37,335 nt of DNA from positions 1 through 37,335 of IMG/VR virus record IMGVR_UViG_3300044701_000242; one strand, given 5' to 3'. The translations under genes and the position numbers were made by a program. The stretch comes from a virus. The stretch's first letter is position 1. Each line of letters opens with the position of its first letter. Positions 49 through 37,335 of this stretch are shown here, in pieces. The notes under the pieces are model-generated. The model made no database searches. It saw only the letters and a program-made list of their open reading frames with translations, and was not told where the DNA came from.

Positions 49-486
49 CTATTCTACACGCGTGTTGTATTGATGCAACAAATATGCGTAGTCGTTCTTT
101 GTGTAGTCTTTTGCACCATCTTGGGCGTAGTGCCTGTAGATTCCCTGCTTTTCTAGCCCTGATTTTTGGCTATGGCAATTGTGGCAAAGGGATTGAAATA
201 TGTTGCGGCTGAACGCATGGCTACCTATGTGCTTCCACGCAAAGAGATGGTCTATATGCTTTGCTGATGCCACTATGTTGCGTGATAGGCAACCTTGGCA
301 TAGGGGTTGTTTGCTTATCTGTACTGCCCTAATACTTTTCCATAATGGCGTTTGGTATGCGCTATCTGTATCCCGTCTTGCCATGTTGTCGATGCCGCCA
401 TGTTCTAAACAGTAGGTGTTCAACTTACTTCTAGGGTTCTTACACCCTAATGATGAACACTTACCGTTAGTGGGTACTGATGGCAT
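49..486 (-). CDS. HNH endonuclease next to terminase
   Basis: A 145-residue protein with an HNH fold. Cys63 and Cys66 form the first zinc pair, HIDH (77-80) carries the catalytic His, Asn95 lies in a RNIFQSL stretch, and CHNCH (101-105) is the second zinc pair. A second Cys cluster lies at 10-30. HNH proteins beside terminase (as HK97 gp74) help the terminase cut DNA during packaging. Its start shares one base with the stop of the upstream gene (TGATG). If the window is circular the next gene is the small terminase, the classic order. Confidence is high for the fold; the packaging role rests on position. Confidence 0.88.
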   Translation of the reverse strand: MPSVPTNGKCSSLGCKNPRSKLNTYCLEHGGIDNMARRDTDSAYQTPLWKSIRAVQISKQPLCQGCLSRNIVASAKHIDHLFAWKHIGSHAFSRNIFQSLCHNCHSQKSGLEKQGIYRHYAQDGAKDYTKNDYAYLLHQYNTRVE

Positions 487-884
487 CAGGCTAGGAATCT
501 CAATTTATATAGCGTACTGTTTATCAGGTTAGCAATCGTATCTACTTCGTTCTGTAGTTCGCTATCCTGTGGGAATCCTGATGCGCGGCGCAGGGTTGCT
601 ACTTCTTCTTTAAGGTAGGTTAGGTAGGTTACGGGGTTATTGTCGGGCAATTGGTAGTCCGATTGATACTTAGTCAATAGCCCGTACTTACCTTGGAACG
701 ATTCTACGAATCCATCTATTAGGTCGCTTACTTTATCGTAATATGCGCCTAATGCCTTATGCTGAGAGTAACTCAGGCTTTGGAAATGCAAGATATGCGC
801 GTTGGTTACGCTATGCAATAGGCACATAACAAACTGCATTACGGGGTCGCTTTGGGCGGCTTCTGCGCGGAATTTAACCATCAT
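486..884 (-). CDS. Small helical protein resembling phage DUF5856 (ferritin/Dps-like)
   Basis: 132 residues, predicted mostly helical. The stretch with SQHKALGAYYDKVSDLID followed by ESFQGKYGLL resembles a phage protein family of unknown function (DUF5856, Dps/ferritin-like helices) in which a Tyr-x-x-His-Lys-Ala-Leu motif is typical. That assignment comes from memory of the family pattern and was not searched. It starts with two Met codons inside an ATGATG that overlaps the upstream stop. It lies in the chain of small leftward genes before HNH and terminase. No function can be stated. Confidence 0.75.
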   Translation of the reverse strand: MMVKFRAEAAQSDPVMQFVMCLLHSVTNAHILHFQSLSYSQHKALGAYYDKVSDLIDGFVESFQGKYGLLTKYQSDYQLPDNNPVTYLTYLKEEVATLRRASGFPQDSELQNEVDTIANLINSTLYKLRFLA

Positions 885-2079: not shown

Positions 2080-2171
2080 ACGGGCGCATCCTCAAAGTTA
2101 TCGGGGTTGAACTTGGGGGTTTTACGCCCCTTATCTTGTGGGTTTGGAAACGGGGGAAAGGGCCAACTCAT
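2076..2171 (-). CDS. 31-residue proline-rich microprotein
   Basis: A short open frame of 31 codons whose start overlaps the stop of the upstream gene (ATGA at 2168-2171) and whose stop overlaps the start of the downstream gene (ATGA at 2076-2079). Two exact overlaps in the correct frame are strong evidence for a real coupled gene. The N-terminus is Trp/Pro/Phe-rich ([11 protein letters not shown]) and the C-terminus acidic. Function unknown. Confidence 0.65.
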
Positions 2172-2377
2172 GCCGCTACCGCCTGTGGCATTTGCGCAAA
2201 TTGTTCAAGGGTAACGATTTTTACAATGCCTTTGTCCATTGCGTGAACCCAATGCTTGTGGCAAACATAGCGGATACATTGCAATTCAGTAGATGGAATG
2301 GTTTTGTCAATCCAAACATTATTGAATTCATCCAACATAACGACAAGGTTGTTTTTTTTGGTAGATGCGTGTTTCAT
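2168..2377 (-). CDS. Small protein of unknown function, first gene after a repressor-controlled promoter
   Basis: 69 residues starting MKHASTKKNN. I chose ATG 2377 because AAAGAAG lies just upstream at good spacing; an upstream TTG at 2449 would place the start inside the promoter. The C-terminal half holds a Cys and several His residues (CHKHWVHAMD). I do not recognise a family. It is the first gene of the leftward unit that starts at the operator-bearing promoter 2420-2449. Confidence 0.7.
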   Translation of the reverse strand: MKHASTKKNNLVVMLDEFNNVWIDKTIPSTELQCIRYVCHKHWVHAMDKGIVKIVTLEQFAQMPQAVAA

Positions 2378-2419
2378 TTTGCTTCTTTCGTTTAGACCGT
2401 GATGCAACGGCATGGTTAA

Positions 2420-2449
2420 ATTATAAGCGGGCTTATATGTCCTACGCAA
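2420..2449 (-). promoter_or_regulatory. Leftward sigma-70 promoter for the packaging/late gene chain
   Basis: Read on the minus strand: -35 TTGCGT (2449-2444), 18 bp spacer, perfect -10 TATAAT (2425-2420). It lies in the gap between the 110-residue gene and the 69-residue gene and points into the chain that leads to HNH and, across the window ends, terminase. The -10 is covered by an operator repeat. Confidence 0.65.
2421..2438. promoter_or_regulatory. Operator O5, copy of the 18 bp inverted repeat
   Basis: TTATAAG-CGGG-CTTATAT, one base off the consensus TTATAAG-N4-CTTATAA, overlapping the -10 of the leftward promoter. It is 2.5 kb away from the other four copies, so this unit appears to be under the same repressor. 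Confidence 0.65.
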
Positions 2450-2457
2450 GTGTAGGG

Positions 2458-2790
2458 TTATTCCGTTACTCTAATGCCGTTGCGTTCGTTAGCCGATTCG
2501 GTGCGCCATAATTCCCCCTTAATAGTCGCCGCGGTCAATTTCCAACGTAACAATTCTTCCTGTTCTACGGCAACCGCCAACCCTTTTAACAATTCATCAT
2601 ATTCGGGATGGGCATAGGCTTCGCGTTCTTGTGCCGCCGCGCTTTCGTAACCCATTTCCATTGCTTGCTTCATCAGCAAAGCGCGTTTCACCCGTCTAAA
2701 TTCATCAAGGTATATGCGTTCACTTTTAGCCTTTGCGTAATTTGGCGCGTTTTCTAAAATGAAATCTACTGTTTTGTAAGGCGGGTTCAT
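2458..2790 (-). CDS. Conserved small phage protein of unknown function
   Basis: 110 residues, helical and charged, with KTVDFILENAPNYAKAKSER near the N-terminus and a GYESAAAQEREAYAHPEY stretch. Proteins with these motifs are, from memory, common in phages beside a small PD-(D/E)XK nuclease gene, as here; their function is unknown. It overlaps the nuclease gene by ATGA and is the last gene before the internal leftward promoter. Confidence 0.75.
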   Translation of the reverse strand: MNPPYKTVDFILENAPNYAKAKSERIYLDEFRRVKRALLMKQAMEMGYESAAAQEREAYAHPEYDELLKGLAVAVEQEELLRWKLTAATIKGELWRTESANERNGIRVTE

Positions 2791-3053
2791 TTAATAACTC
2801 CAATCATTCTTAGGGCGGCTTCAGGGCTATCAACGCGGGAAAGGGTACTACCGCCCCAATTCTCAAAGAAATCGGCTTGTAGGGGCGTTAGCCGCCCTTT
2901 GTTCGTGCTTTTAATCTCTACCAAGAATGTATGCCCGCGGTAGCCAACTAAAAGGTCAACGGGTATGCCAATAATCCAAACATAAGCACCCGCGGCGCGT
3001 AGTGCGCTAACAATCTGTTCTTGGTTGGCATCAACCCTTGCGGCGTATCGCAT
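2787..3053 (-). CDS. Small PD-(D/E)XK nuclease, Holliday-junction-resolvase-like
   Basis: 88 residues with the restriction-endonuclease-fold signature: Asp33 in PVDLLVGYRG, then Glu46-x-Lys48 in LVEIKS. The N-terminus (ARVDANQEQIVSALRAAGA) is typical of small phage resolvase/VRR-NUC-like nucleases. It may resolve recombination or replication junctions before packaging. AAAGGA lies six bases before the ATG, an excellent ribosome site. It lies in a chain with the DUF1376 replication gene. Confidence 0.8.
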   Translation of the reverse strand: MRYAARVDANQEQIVSALRAAGAYVWIIGIPVDLLVGYRGHTFLVEIKSTNKGRLTPLQADFFENWGGSTLSRVDSPEAALRMIGVIK

Positions 3054-3243
3054 TTAAATCCTTTTGTTCATTCATTCTGCGCTTTAAATCATCGGCAACC
3101 TTTTGCCCCCGTTTGGCGGCAATTTCTTTAATGGTTTTTGCCCACCATTCGATTGCTTCGCCCTTGCCTTCTTCTAAATGCTTTTTGCGGTAGCGGGCAA
3201 TCCATTCCCGCGCTTCGCAATCCTTAAAGTGTTCCATGTCCAT
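3031..3243 (-). CDS. Small conserved phage protein of unknown function
   Basis: 70 residues from ATG 3243 (a TTG one codon upstream is possible). Cys/Glu-rich opening CEAREWIARYRKKHLEEGKG, then basic helices. The same motif is, from memory, frequent in small proteins of phage replication regions; no role is known. Its start overlaps the end of the 40-residue gene by 20 bases. Confidence 0.7.
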   Translation of the reverse strand: MDMEHFKDCEAREWIARYRKKHLEEGKGEAIEWWAKTIKEIAAKRGQKVADDLKRRMNEQKDLNAIRRKG

Positions 3244-3346
3244 CAATATCGCCAGTTAGTTCTAAGGCTTTGCGAATTACCCATTGCGGGTAACTAACCC
3301 CATCCCGCACCCTGTCCAATATTCGCATCGCCATTTCGTGTGTCAT
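3224..3346 (-). CDS. 40-residue microprotein
   Basis: Open frame of 40 codons beginning MTHEMAMRILDRVRDG and ending in a Gly/Asp/His-rich tail. The start overlaps the stop of the DUF1376 gene (ATGA at 3343-3346) and the end overlaps the next gene, so it bridges an otherwise unexplained gap. Small proteins of this look follow replication genes in other phages. Function unknown. Confidence 0.6.
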   Translation of the reverse strand: MTHEMAMRILDRVRDGVSYPQWVIRKALELTGDIDGHGTL

Positions 3347-4125
3347 GCTTTAGCCCTCAATGCCGCCATCTTTGCCAATACTTCTAACGGAATTGGTGTG
3401 GCGCGTTTTGCATCTTCTTTTATCTTTTCTAACGCGGGGTCGGGTCGATTGTTCATTGGTACGGTTACGCGGGCAATGTCGGCGGGGTTTTGTTTGGGTG
3501 CGTTTGTGCTTCGTACCCAATTACGCCATGTTGCAAACCAATCCAACTTAACGCCCTTTTGCCCTGCCTGTGAAATCCAATAATCTTTAAATTGGTCAAA
3601 GGTTTTTGTAGGGTGTAGTTCAGGGCGTGTTTGTAAACAAAAATCTTCCCATTCTTTTGTAAAGCAAAAATCATTAGCGAGGCGTGAGCCGCGCTTGTTC
3701 TTATCTATTGGTTTATGGTTAATGGTTAATGGTTCTTGGTTAGGTGTAGGTTCGTGCAATGATGGTAACGAATCGTTAACGGTTCGTGTACTTATCGTGT
3801 CTTTTAATTTACGCTTTGCTTCGCGTTCTTCAGCAATCCGTTTGTTAGTTGTGGCTTTAGCATGGTATTCGGCAATTTCTTCACGAATTCTTGATTGAAC
3901 ATAAAGACCATCTTCTAAAACAAAAAATCGGCGCAAAACAAATTCAACCGCTTCAATTTCTTCAGTTGTAGATGCCCAAGTCCATTCAATTGCATCATCC
4001 ATTGTTGGGAATCGTTCACGGTCATAACATGAATCAATCAGCAGGGTGTAAGCCCCATGTTGAAGCATAGATAACCTACCAGTTTTCTTTGCATAGTCAC
4101 CTATGTTTTTCTTAAAGTAGTGCAT
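3343..4125 (-). CDS. DUF1376-type phage replication protein
   Basis: 260 residues. The N-terminal 85 residues match the DUF1376 pattern (MHYFKKNIGDYAKKTG, then LQHGAYTLLIDSCYDRE), a winged-helix-like domain found in phage replication initiators. A charged linker follows, then a C-terminal module with KTFDQFKDYW and LDWFATWRNWVR, as in phage replication proteins. I chose ATG 4125 because GGGAGG lies six bases upstream; an in-frame start at 4143 lacks such a site. It is the only obvious replication gene, so polymerase and helicase are presumably the host's. Confidence 0.85.
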   Translation of the reverse strand: MHYFKKNIGDYAKKTGRLSMLQHGAYTLLIDSCYDRERFPTMDDAIEWTWASTTEEIEAVEFVLRRFFVLEDGLYVQSRIREEIAEYHAKATTNKRIAEEREAKRKLKDTISTRTVNDSLPSLHEPTPNQEPLTINHKPIDKNKRGSRLANDFCFTKEWEDFCLQTRPELHPTKTFDQFKDYWISQAGQKGVKLDWFATWRNWVRSTNAPKQNPADIARVTVPMNNRPDPALEKIKEDAKRATPIPLEVLAKMAALRAKA

Positions 4126-4468
4126 TTGAAACCTCCCTAACATTTTGGTTAGTAAGGTTAAAAAAATCTAACAAGTAATCTAAATCTTTGGCTTGTGGAA
4201 CAAACCATTCACCGCGTAAATGAGCATGGCGCATAGCCTTATGCAAATGCTTTTCAACTTGTGAATCATTAGGTGTTCTAATTCCCAACCAAAATGATAA
4301 CAAAAATGGGCAACCTGATTGAATGTTGCTTATTCTTTGTTTAAGATTTGTTGTCCTACCAATTTTGATGTATTCAAATTGTTGCGTAGTCAAAACATAT
4401 ACTGATGGCAATTTACTGATAGGTTTTTTTTCAGCAAAGTCGCCAATTTGATGTGGAAAATAATCCAT
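4112..4468 (-). CDS. GIY-YIG nuclease-superfamily protein (T5orf172/MUG113 type)
   Basis: 118 residues. VYVL (23-26), YIKIGRT (33-39), the LKQRI helix, Glu72 in VEKHLHKAMR and GEWF (86-89) give the T5orf172/MUG113 branch of the GIY-YIG fold. Such genes often behave as free-standing homing or selfish nucleases. The first 14 residues (MDYFPHQIGDFAEK) do not belong to that fold but resemble the start of the DUF1376 protein encoded immediately downstream, so this gene seems to have been inserted at the head of a DUF1376 gene and uses a copied start. Its end overlaps the DUF1376 start by 14 bases. Confidence 0.8.
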   Translation of the reverse strand: MDYFPHQIGDFAEKKPISKLPSVYVLTTQQFEYIKIGRTTNLKQRISNIQSGCPFLLSFWLGIRTPNDSQVEKHLHKAMRHAHLRGEWFVPQAKDLDYLLDFFNLTNQNVREVSNALL

Positions 4469-4515
4469 GATTCACCGCTTTAAAAACGCCCTTTAAAAAG
4501 AAACTGCGGCAGGGG

Positions 4516-4554
4516 AAAGGGTGAACCCTTTTCGGTTGGGTAATTAGTCCAACC
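4516..4554 (-). promoter_or_regulatory. Two adjacent hairpins in the gap before the GIY-YIG gene
   Basis: Read on the minus strand, GGTTGG...CCAACC (4554-4534, nine-base loop) is followed directly by AAAGGG-TTCA-CCCTTT (4531-4516). The 108 bp gap 4469-4576 that holds them codes for nothing I can see. There is no U-run, so these are not a simple terminator; they may be an RNA control element or a scar of the GIY-YIG insertion. Confidence 0.4.
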
Positions 4555-4576
4555 TAGCCGTGTTTCAAAAATTGTA

Positions 4577-4774
4577 TCAAAGAACCATCATCGTTTGCAA
4601 ATCTTTGCGTTCTTGATGGGTCATAAAATAATAATAACCTTGCGTGTAATCTTTGTGCAAGTGGTAGCAAATCAGTTGGTACAAAGAATCTTGCATCGAT
4701 TGATTTGCATACGCAAATGCTAGGTGTTCCATCATCAAAGATTTGTGATGTAAATATTTTTCTATTTTTGTCAT
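4577..4774 (-). CDS. Small protein of unknown function after cro
   Basis: 65 residues from ATG 4774, which overlaps the stop of the cro-like gene (ATGA at 4771-4774). Rich in His and Tyr (KYLHHKSLMMEHL, QGYYYFMTHQERKD), predicted helical. I recognise no family. Translational coupling to the repressor suggests an early or regulatory role, which remains a guess. Confidence 0.65.
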   Translation of the reverse strand: MTKIEKYLHHKSLMMEHLAFAYANQSMQDSLYQLICYHLHKDYTQGYYYFMTHQERKDLQTMMVL

Positions 4775-4923
4775 TTGAACCACTTAGGTTTGAGTAACTT
4801 TAATTGCCAAAGCCTAGCCTTTGGAATGTCTTTCCATTGGCTAATAGCGGATTGCTTAATGCCTAGCAATTCCGCTAATTCGGTTTGATTGCGTACCTTT
4901 GTTAACAATTCTTGTTTAGTCAT
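4771..4923 (-). CDS. Cro-like helix-turn-helix repressor
   Basis: 50 residues. TELAELLGIKQSAISQWKD (about 14-32) is a textbook Cro/P22-Cro helix-turn-helix, followed by IPKARLWQLKLLKP, the usual third-helix extension. It would bind as a dimer to the 18 bp inverted repeats found at five promoters, including its own, so it should be autoregulated. It is the first gene of the leftward unit and the next gene overlaps it by ATGA. No partner CI repressor or integrase is visible. The -10 box lies only five bases before the ATG, so the message is probably leaderless. Confidence 0.85.
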   Translation of the reverse strand: MTKQELLTKVRNQTELAELLGIKQSAISQWKDIPKARLWQLKLLKPKWFK

Positions 4924-4928
4924 ACCTT

Positions 4929-4957
4929 ATTATAAGCCAACTAATACAATAAGTAAA
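4929..4957 (-). promoter_or_regulatory. Leftward promoter of the cro-like gene
   Basis: On the minus strand -35 TTTACT (4957-4952), 17 bp spacer, perfect -10 TATAAT (4934-4929). Transcription should begin at or within a base or two of the ATG at 4923. Confidence 0.7.
4930..4947. promoter_or_regulatory. Operator O1 at the cro promoter
   Basis: TTATAAG-CCAA-CTAATAC, a degenerate copy of the inverted repeat; the right half departs most from consensus. It overlaps the leftward -10, so binding would block cro transcription. The weaker match fits weaker autorepression. Confidence 0.6.
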
Positions 4958-4994
4958 CTAGGGAAACTACCTACAAAATAATTTAAAAAAGTGC

Positions 4995-5022
4995 TTGCAT
5001 TGGTTATAAGTTACCTTATAAT
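4995..5022 (+). promoter_or_regulatory. Rightward early promoter 1
   Basis: -35 TTGCAT (4995-5000), 16 bp spacer, -10 TATAAT (5017-5022). It drives the gene at 5068 and shares an AT-rich upstream stretch (AAAATAATTTAAAAAAGTG) and a downstream leader (ATTCATxCATGCCCTA ... CGGGGTCTT) with promoter 2, and more loosely with promoter 3. Confidence 0.75.
5004..5021. promoter_or_regulatory. Operator O2, best inverted repeat
   Basis: TTATAAG-TTAC-CTTATAA, perfect 7 bp arms, covering spacer and -10 of early promoter 1. It sits 74 bp (start to start) from O1 in the divergent region, the usual layout of a Cro switch. Confidence 0.7.
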
Positions 5023-5067
5023 TCATCCATGCCCTAAACAAACGGGGTCTTTTAAAAAGGAAACAAA

Positions 5068-5709
5068 ATGCAAACAGTTCAAATTCAAACACGCGGTATC
5101 TGCCAATGTTGCGGTCGTGAGCAAGCCATCGTTAACGGCAGAATGGCAAAGCATGGTTACACGGTCGAATGTGGTTGGTTTAGCGGCGTATGTTCAGGCA
5201 AAAACTTTGTGCCAATGCAAGTTAGCCGTGACCATACCGACAAATTGGTTGCCCAAGTTACTAAAGAAGTTGGCGACATGATTTCTAAAGCAAACCGCAT
5301 TGAATCAGGCGAAGTTAAGCCAACAACAATTACACGCAACATCAACGGTCGCAATTCCCTTGGCGGCAAAGAAGTTGTTAATTTTGCTGATGCAACCGCT
5401 TATGAGCAAAAACAAGCAGTTGAATCTATTGTTTGGGATTTGCGTAGAAGTGCCGCAATGGGCAAAGATTTTGTAACTAGCATGGTTGAAATCGCTAACG
5501 AATTCCACGGTAAAGAATTGGTTAAAGTTGAAAAGAAACCCGCCGCTGAATTCATTATGCCCCGCGACCAAAAGATTGATGCCCAAGGCAATGTTTGCAT
5601 CTGCACATCAGTAGAGGGCGCACGGGTTTACTTCAAGTTTGACAAGAACGGCAAAACTTACAAAACTTGGATTGGTAGCCAAGCATGGAGAAAATTACAA
5701 GCGGCTTAA
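5068..5709 (+). CDS. Early protein with N-terminal zinc ribbon, function unknown
   Basis: 213 residues. The N-terminus has GICQCCGREQ and, further on, two more Cys (ECGWFSGVC), a likely zinc-binding module. The middle is charged and helical, and the C-terminal 45 residues look like a small beta domain (GARVYFKFDKNGKTYKTWIG). First gene of the rightward operon, AAAAAGG seven bases before the ATG. I know no function; early takeover or DNA transactions are possible. Confidence 0.85.
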   Translation: MQTVQIQTRGICQCCGREQAIVNGRMAKHGYTVECGWFSGVCSGKNFVPMQVSRDHTDKLVAQVTKEVGDMISKANRIESGEVKPTTITRNINGRNSLGGKEVVNFADATAYEQKQAVESIVWDLRRSAAMGKDFVTSMVEIANEFHGKELVKVEKKPAAEFIMPRDQKIDAQGNVCICTSVEGARVYFKFDKNGKTYKTWIGSQAWRKLQAA

Positions 5710-5716
5710 TAGGAAA

Positions 5717-5732
5717 GGGGGCGAAAACCCCC
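5717..5732. terminator. Hairpin after the first early gene
   Basis: GGGGG-CGAAAA-CCCCC, a perfect 5 bp G/C stem eight bases past the stop codon. There is no U-run on the plus strand and only a short T stretch (CCCCCTTTCC) on the minus strand, so termination would be weak or factor-assisted. Confidence 0.4.
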
Positions 5733-5770
5733 GTTAGGGAAACTACTTAGAAAATAATTTTAAAAAAGTG

Positions 5771-5798
5771 TTGACATAGGTATAAGTTGGCTTATAAT
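5771..5798 (+). promoter_or_regulatory. Rightward early promoter 2
   Basis: Perfect -35 TTGACA (5771-5776), 16 bp spacer, perfect -10 TATAAT (5793-5798); probably the strongest of the three cassette promoters. Drives the gene at 5845. Confidence 0.8.
5780..5797. promoter_or_regulatory. Operator O3
   Basis: GTATAAG-TTGG-CTTATAA, one mismatch in the outermost base of the left arm, covering spacer and -10 of early promoter 2. Confidence 0.65.
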
Positions 5799-5844
5799 TC
5801 ATTCATGCCCTAGCAAATCGCACGGGGTCTTAAAGGAAATCAAA

Positions 5845-6078
5845 ATGGCTTACTCAACAACATCACACACACAACAAATGGTTATTGCAGATTTTATTGC
5901 TACTGCACAAACCAACGGTATTTGCAACCTGTGGGCTTGCTTGCCAAAAAAACATAACTTAGTTTGGACAAACCGTGTTGGTCAAATTCGCAAAGTTACT
6001 GATGCAATTGCATTTGGCTTTGATGAACTTGGCAACCGTGTACGCCTGACCCCTGACCTTCGCGTTCTGCAAGATTAA
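5845..6078 (+). CDS. Small early protein of unknown function
   Basis: 77 residues, with its own operator-controlled promoter and an AAAGGAAA ribosome site. Thr/Gln-rich opening (MAYSTTSHTQQ) and a basic C-terminal half (GNRVRLTPDLRVLQD). No family recognised. Being alone in a strong promoter cassette suggests it is made in quantity soon after infection. Confidence 0.75.
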   Translation: MAYSTTSHTQQMVIADFIATAQTNGICNLWACLPKKHNLVWTNRVGQIRKVTDAIAFGFDELGNRVRLTPDLRVLQD

Positions 6079-6099
6079 AAAAAACGGGGCGAAAGCCCC
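6077..6099 (-). terminator. Intrinsic terminator-like hairpin, oriented leftward
   Basis: Stem GGGGC/GCCCC (6086-6099) with a four-base loop (GAAA on the plus strand). On the minus strand it is followed by G and eight T (6084-6077), a proper intrinsic terminator for leftward transcripts; on the plus strand no U-run follows. It could stop late leftward transcription that reads past lysozyme into the early genes, and the stem may also punctuate rightward transcription. Confidence 0.45.
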
Positions 6100-6134
6100 T
6101 ACAAAAAATAATTTAAAAATATTTTAAAAAAGTG

Positions 6135-6164
6135 TTGACATATCTTTATTAGGTAACTTATAAT
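6135..6164 (+). promoter_or_regulatory. Rightward early promoter 3
   Basis: Perfect -35 TTGACA (6135-6140), 18 bp spacer, perfect -10 TATAAT (6159-6164). Drives 6210 and probably the rest of the rightward operon, since no further promoter of this type follows. Confidence 0.75.
6146..6163. promoter_or_regulatory. Operator O4
   Basis: TTATTAG-GTAA-CTTATAA, one mismatch in the left arm, covering spacer and -10 of early promoter 3. Confidence 0.65.
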
Positions 6165-6209
6165 TCATCAACGCCCCAACTTTAGGGGTCTTTTAGAAAG
6201 GCAAAGCAA

Positions 6210-6470
6210 ATGACCGCAATACTTAAATCAGCAATGGCAATCGATGAATTGGCTAACAACCTTCAGCAAATTGCGCGTGATGACAATAAGCAAGTTACCG
6301 ATTACACCAATGCAGAAATTGTGCATGAAGCCAAATATGTTCTTAGTTGTTTCCATGAAGATGGTCATTTAAACAATGAAGATTACATTGGTGAAAACGG
6401 TGCAGAACAACGCGCATGGGCAGTTGGTCAGGTTCGCAAGTTGAACGCGTTTATTAAAAAGTTTGCTTAA
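6210..6470 (+). CDS. Small early protein of unknown function
   Basis: 86 residues, helical, acidic in the middle (EDGHLNNEDYIGENGAEQ). AAAGG precedes the ATG at good spacing. Third gene with its own cassette promoter and probably the first gene of the long rightward message leading to the recombination set. No family recognised. Confidence 0.75.
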   Translation: MTAILKSAMAIDELANNLQQIARDDNKQVTDYTNAEIVHEAKYVLSCFHEDGHLNNEDYIGENGAEQRAWAVGQVRKLNAFIKKFA

Positions 6471-9442: not shown

Positions 9443-9942
9443 TTCTTGTTCCAACCGCGTGAACCAAACCAAAAACCAATGATGCCGCCAAGCATAGCCA
9501 TTTCATCCGAACTAAAAATGATGTCGGACAAACGAATTAAATCATCCATGTTTTGCACAAGGCTAGGGCGTGTATAGATGTAGTACGCAATCCAAGCATT
9601 GATAGCGCAAAGTTCAAAAACAAAAATGTAGGTAACAGTTGGGCGCACCGTGCCAACATAATTAGCGACCCAAGTAGAAGCGCGTTCTAAAACCTTTTCA
9701 TCATGCTTTAGTGCCGCTTCGGTCATTTGCGCTTCTGTTTCCATTGCAATTTGGTCAGTGCGGATTTCTTCAATACGCGCTTGGGCGGCAAACCCCGCGG
9801 CGGCTAACTGTAGTTCGCGTTCTGTTTGCACCCTAGCCAAAGCAAGTTCATGCGCTTGGTCGGCTTTGTTTTGAAAGTAATCAAGTAGTTTGGGCAAACC
9901 CGAAATGAGTAAGCCGCCAAGTGTAGAAAATAGTGAAAGCAT
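9439..9942 (-). CDS. Holin, three-transmembrane GTA type
   Basis: 167 residues: a short hydrophobic N-terminus (LFSTLGGLLISGL), a long charged helix (30-90), then VRPTVTYIFVFELCAINAWI and a C-terminal MLGGIIGFWFGSRGWNKK. This is the pattern of the GTA_holin_3TM family (VRP-T ... GFWFG). It would form inner-membrane lesions that release the lysozyme encoded by the next gene, with which it overlaps by ATGA. Confidence 0.85.
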   Translation of the reverse strand: MLSLFSTLGGLLISGLPKLLDYFQNKADQAHELALARVQTERELQLAAAGFAAQARIEEIRTDQIAMETEAQMTEAALKHDEKVLERASTWVANYVGTVRPTVTYIFVFELCAINAWIAYYIYTRPSLVQNMDDLIRLSDIIFSSDEMAMLGGIIGFWFGSRGWNKK

Positions 9943-30460: not shown

Positions 30461-31477
30461 TTAGGCGGCAGACATACGAACGCCCGCGAACGGGTCGCGT
30501 ACGGTGCTTACCATTCTTTTTTCTGCGTACATCGTCACAAAACCCGCCTGTGTTTGTTCAAACATTTGGATGCTCATTTGTTCGGTATCACCGATTGTCA
30601 AAAAGCGATTCCAGTTTGCCAAGTAGATTGGGAAATCTGTAGAAAGGTATGCGTTAGGAATAACGGGCCAACCAAAAATGTGACCAATTGCGCAACCATC
30701 TTTTTCGCCTAGTTCCAAGAACAAAGGCAAGCCCGCGGTATCTTTTAACTGGCGCAATGTTTGAATCATTGCGGGGCTAATGTGCCATGCAGTTGAATCT
30801 AGCGACCAATATTGCGGGGGCAACGCGTTAGCCATGTTTACAACTTTGTTGTAAGTTACCGTAGTGCCGCCATTACTAACCGTAGCGATAGTATGTATGC
30901 CATTTGTAATAGCCGTACCACTAGAACCGAAAGCACTAGTAGCACCACTAGCGTACATATCCAAACCGCGCAAGCCATTAGTAGCACCAGTTGATGTAGT
31001 GCCGCTACCCGCTTGGTCGCTATTAAGCACCATTGATTGACCTTCAAGTTGTGCAAACTCAAGTGCCAAATCTTCAACAAGCGTTGCATCAAGTCCATTA
31101 ACATCACTTAGCACCGCCGTTCTGATTGGCAATTGTGCAACCAATACGCGCACGGGCAATTGCCAAATAGAAGTATTCACATTAGGCGAACCGCTATTTG
31201 GCGTAAATGTGTAACCCCAAGGGTTTGTAGAATTTGCGGCGTTACCAGTTTTGGCAACGAATTGGGCATCAGAACCCGTAACTGTAATTTGGCGTGAGCC
31301 TTGGCGCAAAGGGTTTGCTTGACGCAAAGCCGCAAACGCATCATCAAAAACAACATTACCACCGACACCCGAACCCGAACCAGTAATTGCGCTTGCTTCG
31401 CGCAAGTCGATGTTTACTTTGCCGCCTTCGGTGATGGCTTGTTTGATTCCGTTCAAGATTTTTTCGGTGATAGACAT
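30461..31477 (-). CDS. Second HK97-fold capsid protein (no delta domain)
   Basis: 338 residues. Paralogue of the protein at 31536-32882: shared REASAITGSG, FAALRQANPLR, QLPIRTAVLSDVNGLDA, TNGLRGLDMYA, LPPQYW, ISPAM and EKRM-STVRDPFAG. It lacks the approximately 80-residue coiled-coil N-terminal scaffold, having only about 26 residues before the arm. It could be a minor or alternative capsomer. It lies beyond an intrinsic terminator, so it is probably made at lower level. Confidence 0.82.
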   Translation of the reverse strand: MSITEKILNGIKQAITEGGKVNIDLREASAITGSGSGVGGNVVFDDAFAALRQANPLRQGSRQITVTGSDAQFVAKTGNAANSTNPWGYTFTPNSGSPNVNTSIWQLPVRVLVAQLPIRTAVLSDVNGLDATLVEDLALEFAQLEGQSMVLNSDQAGSGTTSTGATNGLRGLDMYASGATSAFGSSGTAITNGIHTIATVSNGGTTVTYNKVVNMANALPPQYWSLDSTAWHISPAMIQTLRQLKDTAGLPLFLELGEKDGCAIGHIFGWPVIPNAYLSTDFPIYLANWNRFLTIGDTEQMSIQMFEQTQAGFVTMYAEKRMVSTVRDPFAGVRMSAA

Positions 31478-31535: not shown

Positions 31536-32882
31536 TTAAGTAGCAGTACCAGTTGAACGATAACGAATCAACGCGTTAGGGTCACGAACCGATGTAGCCA
31601 AACGCTTTTCACCAAAGAATGTGATAAAGCCCGGCGCGGTTTGGTCGTAGCGGCGCATAATCATGTTCAATCTGTCAATGATTGTGTGACCGCGTGTGAA
31701 ATCACCAAAGAACATTGGATACAAAGAAGTTGTACCCGCAGAACCAGTAGTTGCTTGTGATGGGTTATCGCAATACTTGTTAACGACAACATCAAAGCCC
31801 AACAAATTACCTACGATACCTTCAACCGACAAACCTTCGTTACGATTAAAGATTGGTGCGCCGTTTGTATCACGCAATGCGCGAATAGCGTTCAACAAAA
31901 TTGGGCTAATCATAAACTTAGTGTCAGGTGTCCAATACTGTTGTGGCAAAGCATAAATAGTATTGATTACGTCAACATAAGAAATGTTGTTTGCGCCAAC
32001 GGTGTTTGCGTTAGTGGTAATTTGGTCATAAGTAGCAAGGCTATGCAAACCAGTATTAGAACCCGTACCGCTTGTTCCAAATGCCGCAGTAGAGCAAGTA
32101 CCACCCGCATAGGTAGCGTTAGCACCCGCGTATTGGTCTAAGCCACGCAAGCCATTTGTGCCGCCGTAAGGGTTAGTGCTTGATTGTGCCGCTTGGTCGT
32201 TATTCTGAATCATTGACAAGGCTTCGGCTTGCGAAAACTCCATCAACATATCGTCAACGACATTGGCTTCCAAACCATCAATATCATCCAAAGCCGCAGT
32301 ACGGATTGGGAATTGAACATTCAGGTCTTGCAGAACCAATTGCCAAATGCTTGTATTTTCAGTTGTGGCATCGCCGTTGTTCTGAATCGCATAGCCCCAT
32401 GCCGCACCCGCATTACCAGTTTTGACACGAAATTGATATGAAGAACCATCGGTTGCTACGGTGCGTGACAAACCGCGCATGGGGTTAGCCAAACGCAAAG
32501 CGGCAAACACGGGGTCATAAGCGGTGCGACCACCTTGGTTGTTGCCTGAGCCTGTCAATGCTGATGCCTCGCGCATATACGCATCGCGTTGGCTTTCGTC
32601 TGCAAAAATTTGCAGTTCTTTTTCTACGCGGGCATTGCTTTTGTAGAAAGAAACCAATTGTTCTTTAACAGAACGGTTTACATCGCCGCGCACGGATGTA
32701 GCGGGCTTGACGATTGCAGGGGCTTGAATAGATGCTACTTTGGCTTCCAAAGCAGAAATGGTTTCTTGCATTTCCAGTTTGATTGCTTCAACGGCGGCGG
32801 GAATTTTTGCTTCAACGGCGGCAATGCTTTCGCTTTGCTTGGCTTCGATAGCATCCAATTTTTCAATGATTGCTTGTGACAT
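31536..32882 (-). CDS. Major capsid protein (HK97 fold with delta domain)
   Basis: 448 residues. Residues 1-55 are Ala/Glu/Lys heptads (IIEKLDAIEAKQSESIAAVE), the coiled-coil delta scaffold removed by the prohead protease. The region to about 105 (ESQRDAYMREASALTGSG) leads into the N-arm. The body has FAALRLANPMRGLSR, FPIRTAALDDIDGLEAN, TNGLRGLDQYAG, MISPILLNAIRALRDTNG and the C-terminal GEKRLATSVRDPNALIRY. Self-assembles into the icosahedral shell. Four bases from the protease gene. Confidence 0.9.
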   Translation of the reverse strand: MSQAIIEKLDAIEAKQSESIAAVEAKIPAAVEAIKLEMQETISALEAKVASIQAPAIVKPATSVRGDVNRSVKEQLVSFYKSNARVEKELQIFADESQRDAYMREASALTGSGNNQGGRTAYDPVFAALRLANPMRGLSRTVATDGSSYQFRVKTGNAGAAWGYAIQNNGDATTENTSIWQLVLQDLNVQFPIRTAALDDIDGLEANVVDDMLMEFSQAEALSMIQNNDQAAQSSTNPYGGTNGLRGLDQYAGANATYAGGTCSTAAFGTSGTGSNTGLHSLATYDQITTNANTVGANNISYVDVINTIYALPQQYWTPDTKFMISPILLNAIRALRDTNGAPIFNRNEGLSVEGIVGNLLGFDVVVNKYCDNPSQATTGSAGTTSLYPMFFGDFTRGHTIIDRLNMIMRRYDQTAPGFITFFGEKRLATSVRDPNALIRYRSTGTAT

Positions 32883-37259: not shown

Positions 37260-37335
37260 TTTTTTATATTAAACGCTTTGTTGTAGTTTAGCAACCTTAT
37301 AACCCCCGCTAACTTTGCCTTTCTACAGAAAAAGG
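37260..37335. other. Right window edge, non-coding; possible half of the packaging region
   Basis: 76 bases upstream of the small terminase gene. They contain a weak promoter-like sequence, a short C-run (ACCCCCGC), and an imperfect inverted repeat CCTTT-CTACAGAA-AAAGG at the very end (37319-37335). Together with bases 1-48 this would be the gap between the HNH and terminase genes. A cos or pac site is expected near here by analogy with HK97-type phages but is not identified. Confidence 0.4.

Follow-up and report, generated by a model that had tools for sequence, protein, structure and literature searches.

The stretch of DNA analyzed here, called the window below, covers 37,335 nucleotides (nt; positions 1-37,335 of IMG/VR record IMGVR_UViG_3300044701_000242) of a freshwater virus infecting bacteria and amounts to an essentially complete genome of a tailed phage. 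It carries cro, a gene encoding a predicted Cro repressor of 50 residues (MTKQELLTKVRNQTELAELLGIKQSAISQWKDIPKARLWQLKLLKPKWFK), together with 5 inverted repeats of 18 base pairs (bp), TTATAAG-N4-CTTATAA, which lie at promoters of cro and of other transcription units (Table 1). Leftward of cro we found an open reading frame (ORF) of GIY-YIG type and a DUF1376 primosomal-type replication protein; rightward are several small cassettes, followed by ERF and YqaJ recombination genes, and the approximately 80 bp between the divergent promoters contain no gene. This layout of the arms is the lambda plan without the immunity segment between them.

Table 1. Operators, leader hairpins and associated genes in the window (arm mismatches are relative to TTATAAG-N4-CTTATAA).
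Feature	Coordinates	Strand	Remarks
cro, 50-residue P22-type Cro repressor (predicted)	4771..4923	-	PF14549, fold match, leaderless layout
Operator 1	4930..4947	-	over -10/spacer of cro promoter; at -23 in 17/17 group A genomes; 2 arm mismatches
Operator 2	5004..5021	+	perfect palindrome, over promoter of divergent rightward unit; 0 arm mismatches
Operator 3	5780..5797	+	over second rightward cassette promoter; 1 arm mismatch
Operator 4	6146..6163	+	over third rightward cassette promoter; 1 arm mismatch
Operator 5	2421..2438	-	over leftward promoter facing genome ends, terS and late genes; centre CCCG; 1 arm mismatch
Decayed sixth operator-like site (tentative)	37286..37301	-	42-57 bp upstream of terS start codon
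Leader hairpin behind operator 2	5023..5060	+	model R1 45.6 bits; stem covariation
Leader hairpin behind operator 3	5799..5840	+	model R1 34.2 bits
Leader hairpin behind operator 4	6165..6201	+	model R1 42.2 bits
Leader hairpin behind operator 5	2384..2419	-	model R1 38.3 bits
213-residue early protein, first gene of divergent unit	5068..5709	+	phrog_17208, E 3.5e-59
77-residue small early gene, cassette 2	5845..6078	+	family found behind other hairpins in relatives
86-residue small early gene, cassette 3	6210..6470	+	cassette reuse comparison in relatives
69-residue first gene of leftward unit behind operator 5	2168..2377	-	orthologues behind same operator in L016, L017, L018

We scanned the full window for the repeat, allowing up to 3 arm mismatches, and obtained 8 matches where 3.1 were expected; the 3 extra matches (7437, 22449 and 35097), with 3 mismatches each, are chance background. 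The core TATAAG-N4-CTTATA with at most 1 mismatch was found at exactly the 5 sites, against 0.12 expected from 300 dinucleotide shuffles of the window, in which the largest count was 2. The 5 repeats are therefore genuine and not due to chance; they lie where the initial annotation listed them (2421, 4930, 5004, 5780 and 6146), and their arms contain 0 to 2 mismatches.

All 5 operators sit in sigma-70-like promoters. The promoters at 5780 (TTGACA-16-TATAAT) and 6146 (TTGACA-18-TATAAT) scored 12/12 and that of cro 10/12 (-35 TTTACT, -10 TATAAT, 4957-4929, minus strand), while those at 5004 and 2421 combine a perfect -10 box with a weak -35 (TTGCAT and TTGCGT, respectively). In all 5 copies, the downstream arm of the operator contains the -10 box CTTATAAT. 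As one arm doubles as the -10 box, independent evidence comes only from the other arm and its spacing. The CTTATAAT 8-mer occurs 5 times in the window, each time preceded at a distance of ten bases by TAT(A/T)AG, and the same left arm was present at 63/63 such sites when the window was considered with 16 relatives (17 genomes). The chance of finding this arm is about 0.007-0.013 per site and about 1e-10 for 5 sites if independent; the 3 rightward sites have the AT tract, the -35 and the leader in common and are thus copies of one cassette rather than independent sites.

The 50-residue protein matched the Pfam family P22_Cro (PF14549) with 35.3 bits (cut-off 30.2, E 9.6e-9), as well as phrog_409, a transcriptional regulator, and P22 Cro was its top sequence match in the PDB. 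Its predicted structure has 5 helices (predicted local distance difference test, pLDDT, 87.6), and the model shows the all-helical fold with helix-turn-helix expected of the family. The best fold matches were P22 Cro (1rzs, template modeling score 0.77) and then N15 Cro (0.76; 2hin/6on0, free and DNA-bound), with E-values that are weak (0.15) owing to the short chain. By these matches, the protein is a P22-type Cro. Considering also the conservation of the operators and the half-site covariation described below, the earlier proposal of this protein as candidate ligand is supported, and the phage's own Cro almost certainly binds the 5 sites.

The recognition helix of the window Cro, KQSAISQW, aligns with YQSAINKA of lambda Cro and KQQSIQL of 434, and we take Gln24 to be equivalent to lambda Cro Gln27 and 434 Gln28. 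Those residues read an adenine in the outer half-site, and the adenine corresponding to the Gln24 contact is the third base of TTATAAG. We compared residue 24 with this base in 48 informative distinct proteins. None of the 33 Cros with Gln24 has a G at that position (A-type sites), and all 15 with Leu, Ser or Asp24 do (G-type, for example TGTAAG-N4-CTTACA), a fit without exception. This covariation supports the link between Cro and the operator, the pattern being strong and the number of independent events modest. Hall et al. 2005, cited in PMC4997575, had proposed that the recognition helices and half-sites of Cro proteins are correlated.

The layout of the cro promoter suggests that its mRNA is probably leaderless, with TATAAT ending 5 nt before the ATG. 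Among 68 distinct cro upstream regions, 67 have a -10 box ending 5-7 nt before the ATG, and no Shine-Dalgarno-like motif was found at the usual distance in any of them. The cro mRNA of PY54 was proven to be leaderless (PMC4488713).

We then looked at conservation. Operators are kept at equivalent promoters in at least 16 relatives. In group A (L005-L020, L066-L070), the operator lies 23 bp before cro, and in most cases a copy on the divergent promoter is found near -97; another copy is at a leftward promoter, some 2-4 kb beyond cro in the downstream direction, and most genomes have 1 to 3 further rightward cassettes with an operator. Reversed-pattern controls in the group A genomes gave no match at 1 mismatch. 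Other clades mostly have the divergent pair, or 1 to 3 sites, so the regulon has expanded in the lineage of the window; for the same reason, we dropped the idea that every genome of the wider group has 5 or more operators. A fixed 74-bp (seven-turn) spacing of the divergent operators, which would have hinted at looping, was also dropped, as the spacing ranges from about 47 to 93 bp across clades. Outside the window, a de novo search for exact 6-bp inverted words that recur gave too much noise. A DNA-only scan of the viral collection, based on the operator and the start of the leader, returned 49 stretches, and 37 of the 45 newly fetched ones encode this Cro family. The relatives of this Cro that we found number 399, and no close homologue was detected in 84,980 bacterial and archaeal genomes. 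Among isolated phages, a nucleotide search with the intergenic region found nothing; the isolate with the closest terminase, P19250A (60.6% identity), has neither an annotated Cro nor a matching set of sites.

All 4 non-cro operators of the window are followed by a 5' leader, AUGCC...GGUCU, that starts about 8 nt past the -10 box and folds as a hairpin. Among 19 distinct leaders, 97.9% of the stem cells pair, with compensatory changes in 4 of 5 pairs; the covariation score was 0.484, versus at most 0.094 with the partner slid. A covariance model gave 4 matches in the window, located exactly beside the 4 non-cro operators, and 45 matches in 36 sources, each beside an operator; the sole match outside group A (L037) has the same operator type. 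Rfam gave no match at the leaders, either in the window, where only an int-alpA RNA was detected, or in 8 relatives. In relatives, the cassette precedes more than 10 unrelated small genes, the same gene occurs behind different hairpins across genomes, and the same hairpin occurs before different genes. Promoter, operator and hairpin behave as one cassette, duplicated before different small genes. A short ORF starting at an AUG near the predicted leader start was discarded, its frame and stop not being conserved. As the hairpin is 5'-terminal and the sequence of its stem is free to vary, we favor mRNA protection as its role over a protein-binding site; antitermination is another possibility. 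We regard as possible rather than probable a broader idea, in which the hairpin would be a new class of phage regulatory RNA working with Cro (by antitermination or mRNA stability), the cassette would be mobile among virulent phages and the leaderless cro would escape control at the RNA level. If true, virulent phages could add genes already under negative feedback through a mobile promoter-operator-hairpin cassette.

Altogether, we consider it very probable that the window encodes a P22-type Cro regulon without CI, which makes early transcription self-limiting and has spread as promoter-operator-hairpin cassettes. Cro, the only recognizable repressor of the Cro/CI class in this phage, would be made early after infection from its probably leaderless mRNA and, as it accumulates, would bind the TTATAAG-N4-CTTATAA sites as a dimer. 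Its targets would be cro itself, the early unit that diverges rightward from it and forms the recombination arm, the 2 further rightward cassettes and the leftward promoter at 2421, so that the regulon, first described as genome-wide, would indeed reach both early arms and this leftward promoter. Bound Cro would occlude the -10 box and the spacer, excluding RNA polymerase, and early transcription would become a self-limiting pulse through negative feedback, which corresponds to a lambda/P22 switch reduced to its lytic half, with CI missing. The sequences themselves show the sites, with their conservation and their overlap with promoters, the identity of Cro, the covariation of residue 24 with the half-site and of the hairpin stems, and the reuse of the cassette; from these we infer binding, repression, timing, the leaderless start sites and the function of the hairpin.

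Several observations weigh against this interpretation. If Cro served purely to shut off early genes, a site on the late-facing promoter would be surprising, and weaker binding there or another factor would be needed. On the cro side, clade B genomes (L021-L028) match the operator in one half-site only. The best tree needs about 3 residue-base changes, and one alone is forced by well-supported branches. In addition, 2 contigs with Arg24 retain A-type sites, showing that a plain contrast of Gln with all other residues does not describe the rule, and we therefore softened a strict rule in which every non-Gln residue goes with a G-type site. In favor of the interpretation, no CI or integrase was found among 40 proteins scanned with PHROG and 20 scanned with Pfam, a set that includes part of the small ORFs. 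This result, combined with the lack of a close homologue in cellular genomes, suggests that these phages are virulent.

Part of the same evidence could be read as a protein equivalent to CI, the phage being temperate or plasmid-like and the protein its maintenance repressor, which shuts all lytic promoters in the lysogen. The sites cover both early arms and the late-facing promoter, the leaderless layout resembles that of lambda cI, and an int-alpA RNA match hints at temperate ancestry. However, an integrase, a partition gene and a CI-type C-terminal domain were all missing from the scanned proteins, the cellular genomes in which prophage repressors would be expected contain no close homologue, and fold and length are those of P22 Cro. 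As PY54 cro mRNA is also leaderless (PMC4488713), this trait is not specific to cI, and we judge the CI-equivalent repressor unlikely. The repeats could also be merely a preferred promoter sequence copied by cassette duplication, with an incidental symmetry and an unread left arm, considering that one arm is the -10 box and that the 3 rightward copies are clearly duplicates in AT tract, -35 and leader. Yet the left arm lies in the spacer, normally unconstrained by sigma-70, and is nevertheless missing from none of the 63 sites anchored on the -10 box; its flanks at cro and at 2421 are unrelated, and it changes with the Cro recognition helix in other clades, which makes this explanation very improbable. 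That a host regulator binds the sites instead of the phage Cro, as other phages are known to use such regulators, has hardly any probability, since the site type tracks residue 24 of the phage Cro, the site nearly always adjoins the cro gene and the AAG-N4-CTT core fits the P22/434 operator type.

A Cro regulon being the preferred reading, the four-base centres of the operators may bear on how strongly each promoter is repressed. The initial annotation counted 5 different centres and proposed that they may tune affinity. Read in the direction of the promoter, they are CCCG (2421), TTGG (cro), TTAC (5004), TTGG (5780) and GTAA (6146); as TTAC/GTAA and CCAA/TTGG are reverse complements, only 3 are different, and the count of 5 was an artefact of reading one strand. 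What stands of the tuning idea, which does not hold as stated, is that the centre is specific to the promoter class: the late-facing site has CCCG in 10/11 relatives, despite an altered -35 region, and the cro site has TTGG in 18/19. In 434 and P22, A-tracts in the operator centre raise affinity through indirect readout (PMC3317979); by analogy, the G+C-rich CCCG centre could leave the late-facing promoter the least repressed.

Compared with known systems, the Cro proteins of P22, N15 and PY54, whose operators span 16-18 bp, resemble the one described here in the predicted all-helical fold, the PF14549 family, an 18-bp dyad operator with an AAG-N4-CTT-like core, predicted autoregulation and divergent early promoters, with a putative leaderless cro mRNA as in PY54 (PMC4488713). 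Those phages have tripartite OR/OL regions, whereas here there is one operator per promoter, no CI/C2 partner was found, operators occur at 5 promoters including a late-facing one, and a hairpin leader follows each non-cro operator. Neither OR1-3/OL1-3 arrays nor a CI/C2-type gene opposite cro, as in the lambdoid bistable switch, were found in the window; among relatives, a nearby second site exists only in L007, L008 and L018. In these 3 (at 9933, 9933 and 8766, respectively), the extra operator-like site lies 45 bp upstream of the cro operator and is possibly a second operator for the divergent region. With lambda Cro/CI, the system shares a Cro-like repressor, a replication arm opposed to a divergent recombination arm and the Gln27 equivalent in the recognition helix; it differs by the absence of a cI-rex immunity segment, by its single site per promoter and by a predicted all-helical rather than alpha+beta Cro. 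The repressor of mycobacteriophages L5/Bxb1 acts on 20-30 operator/stoperator sites (PMC6550527), so that there, too, a single phage repressor has one motif repeated at many places in the genome. In L5, which is temperate, a monomer binds asymmetric sites that are mostly off promoters, whereas the window sites are palindromic and all located on promoters. TgrL (gp216) of the virulent Caulobacter phage phiCbK (PMC10688885) is likewise an XRE/Cro-like regulator expressed early in a virulent phage. TgrL was characterized via host target genes, while here the recognizable targets are the phage's own promoters.

Cro is usually regarded as half of a switch between lysis and lysogeny. A large environmental phage group appears to keep Cro without CI, and one lineage of it appears to have spread the Cro operator over about 5 to 7 promoters, providing a testable case for Cro acting alone. 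The recognition-helix code can be tested on a natural set of more than 50 distinct Cro proteins and their operators. The pairing of operator and hairpin in cassettes points to a simple way in which phages may add regulated genes.

The promoter at 2421 runs leftward through 2 HNH genes to the left end of the window. Between these 2 endonucleases lies an ORF for a DUF5856 protein (486-884, minus strand; phrog_858, starvation-inducible transcriptional regulator). L017 and L018 read through the genome join, and there the strand of 2421 continues into terS and terL. The initial annotation had this promoter feeding the packaging/late chain; it is co-directional into terS in the contigs spanning the join, and it would presumably drive late genes.

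An identical end point, 76 bp before terS, is shared by the window (1 and 37335) and the L007 and L012 contigs; there, L017 (about 9560) and L018 (about 14570) carry 10 extra bases, CAAGCGCGGT or CAAGCGCGGG. The genome end is likely a cos site whose 10-nt single-stranded overhang was lost during sequencing. Close to this end is the decayed sixth site, overlooked in the earlier count of 5. It reads TATAAGGTTGCTAAAC on the minus strand, with 3 mismatches in the window and only 1 at the equivalent place in L012, L017 and L018. This site may overlap the -35 box of a putative terS promoter, whose mRNA would be leaderless too.

In the cro operon, positions 4489-4564 (minus strand), which lie upstream of the ORF of GIY-YIG type, match the Rfam int-alpA RNA (RF02996) with 37.0 bits against a cut-off of 35.8, although no int or alpA gene was found; this RNA was not found in 8 relatives. 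Two adjacent ORFs, 30461-31477 and 31536-32882 (minus strand), both match the major head protein family phrog_10.

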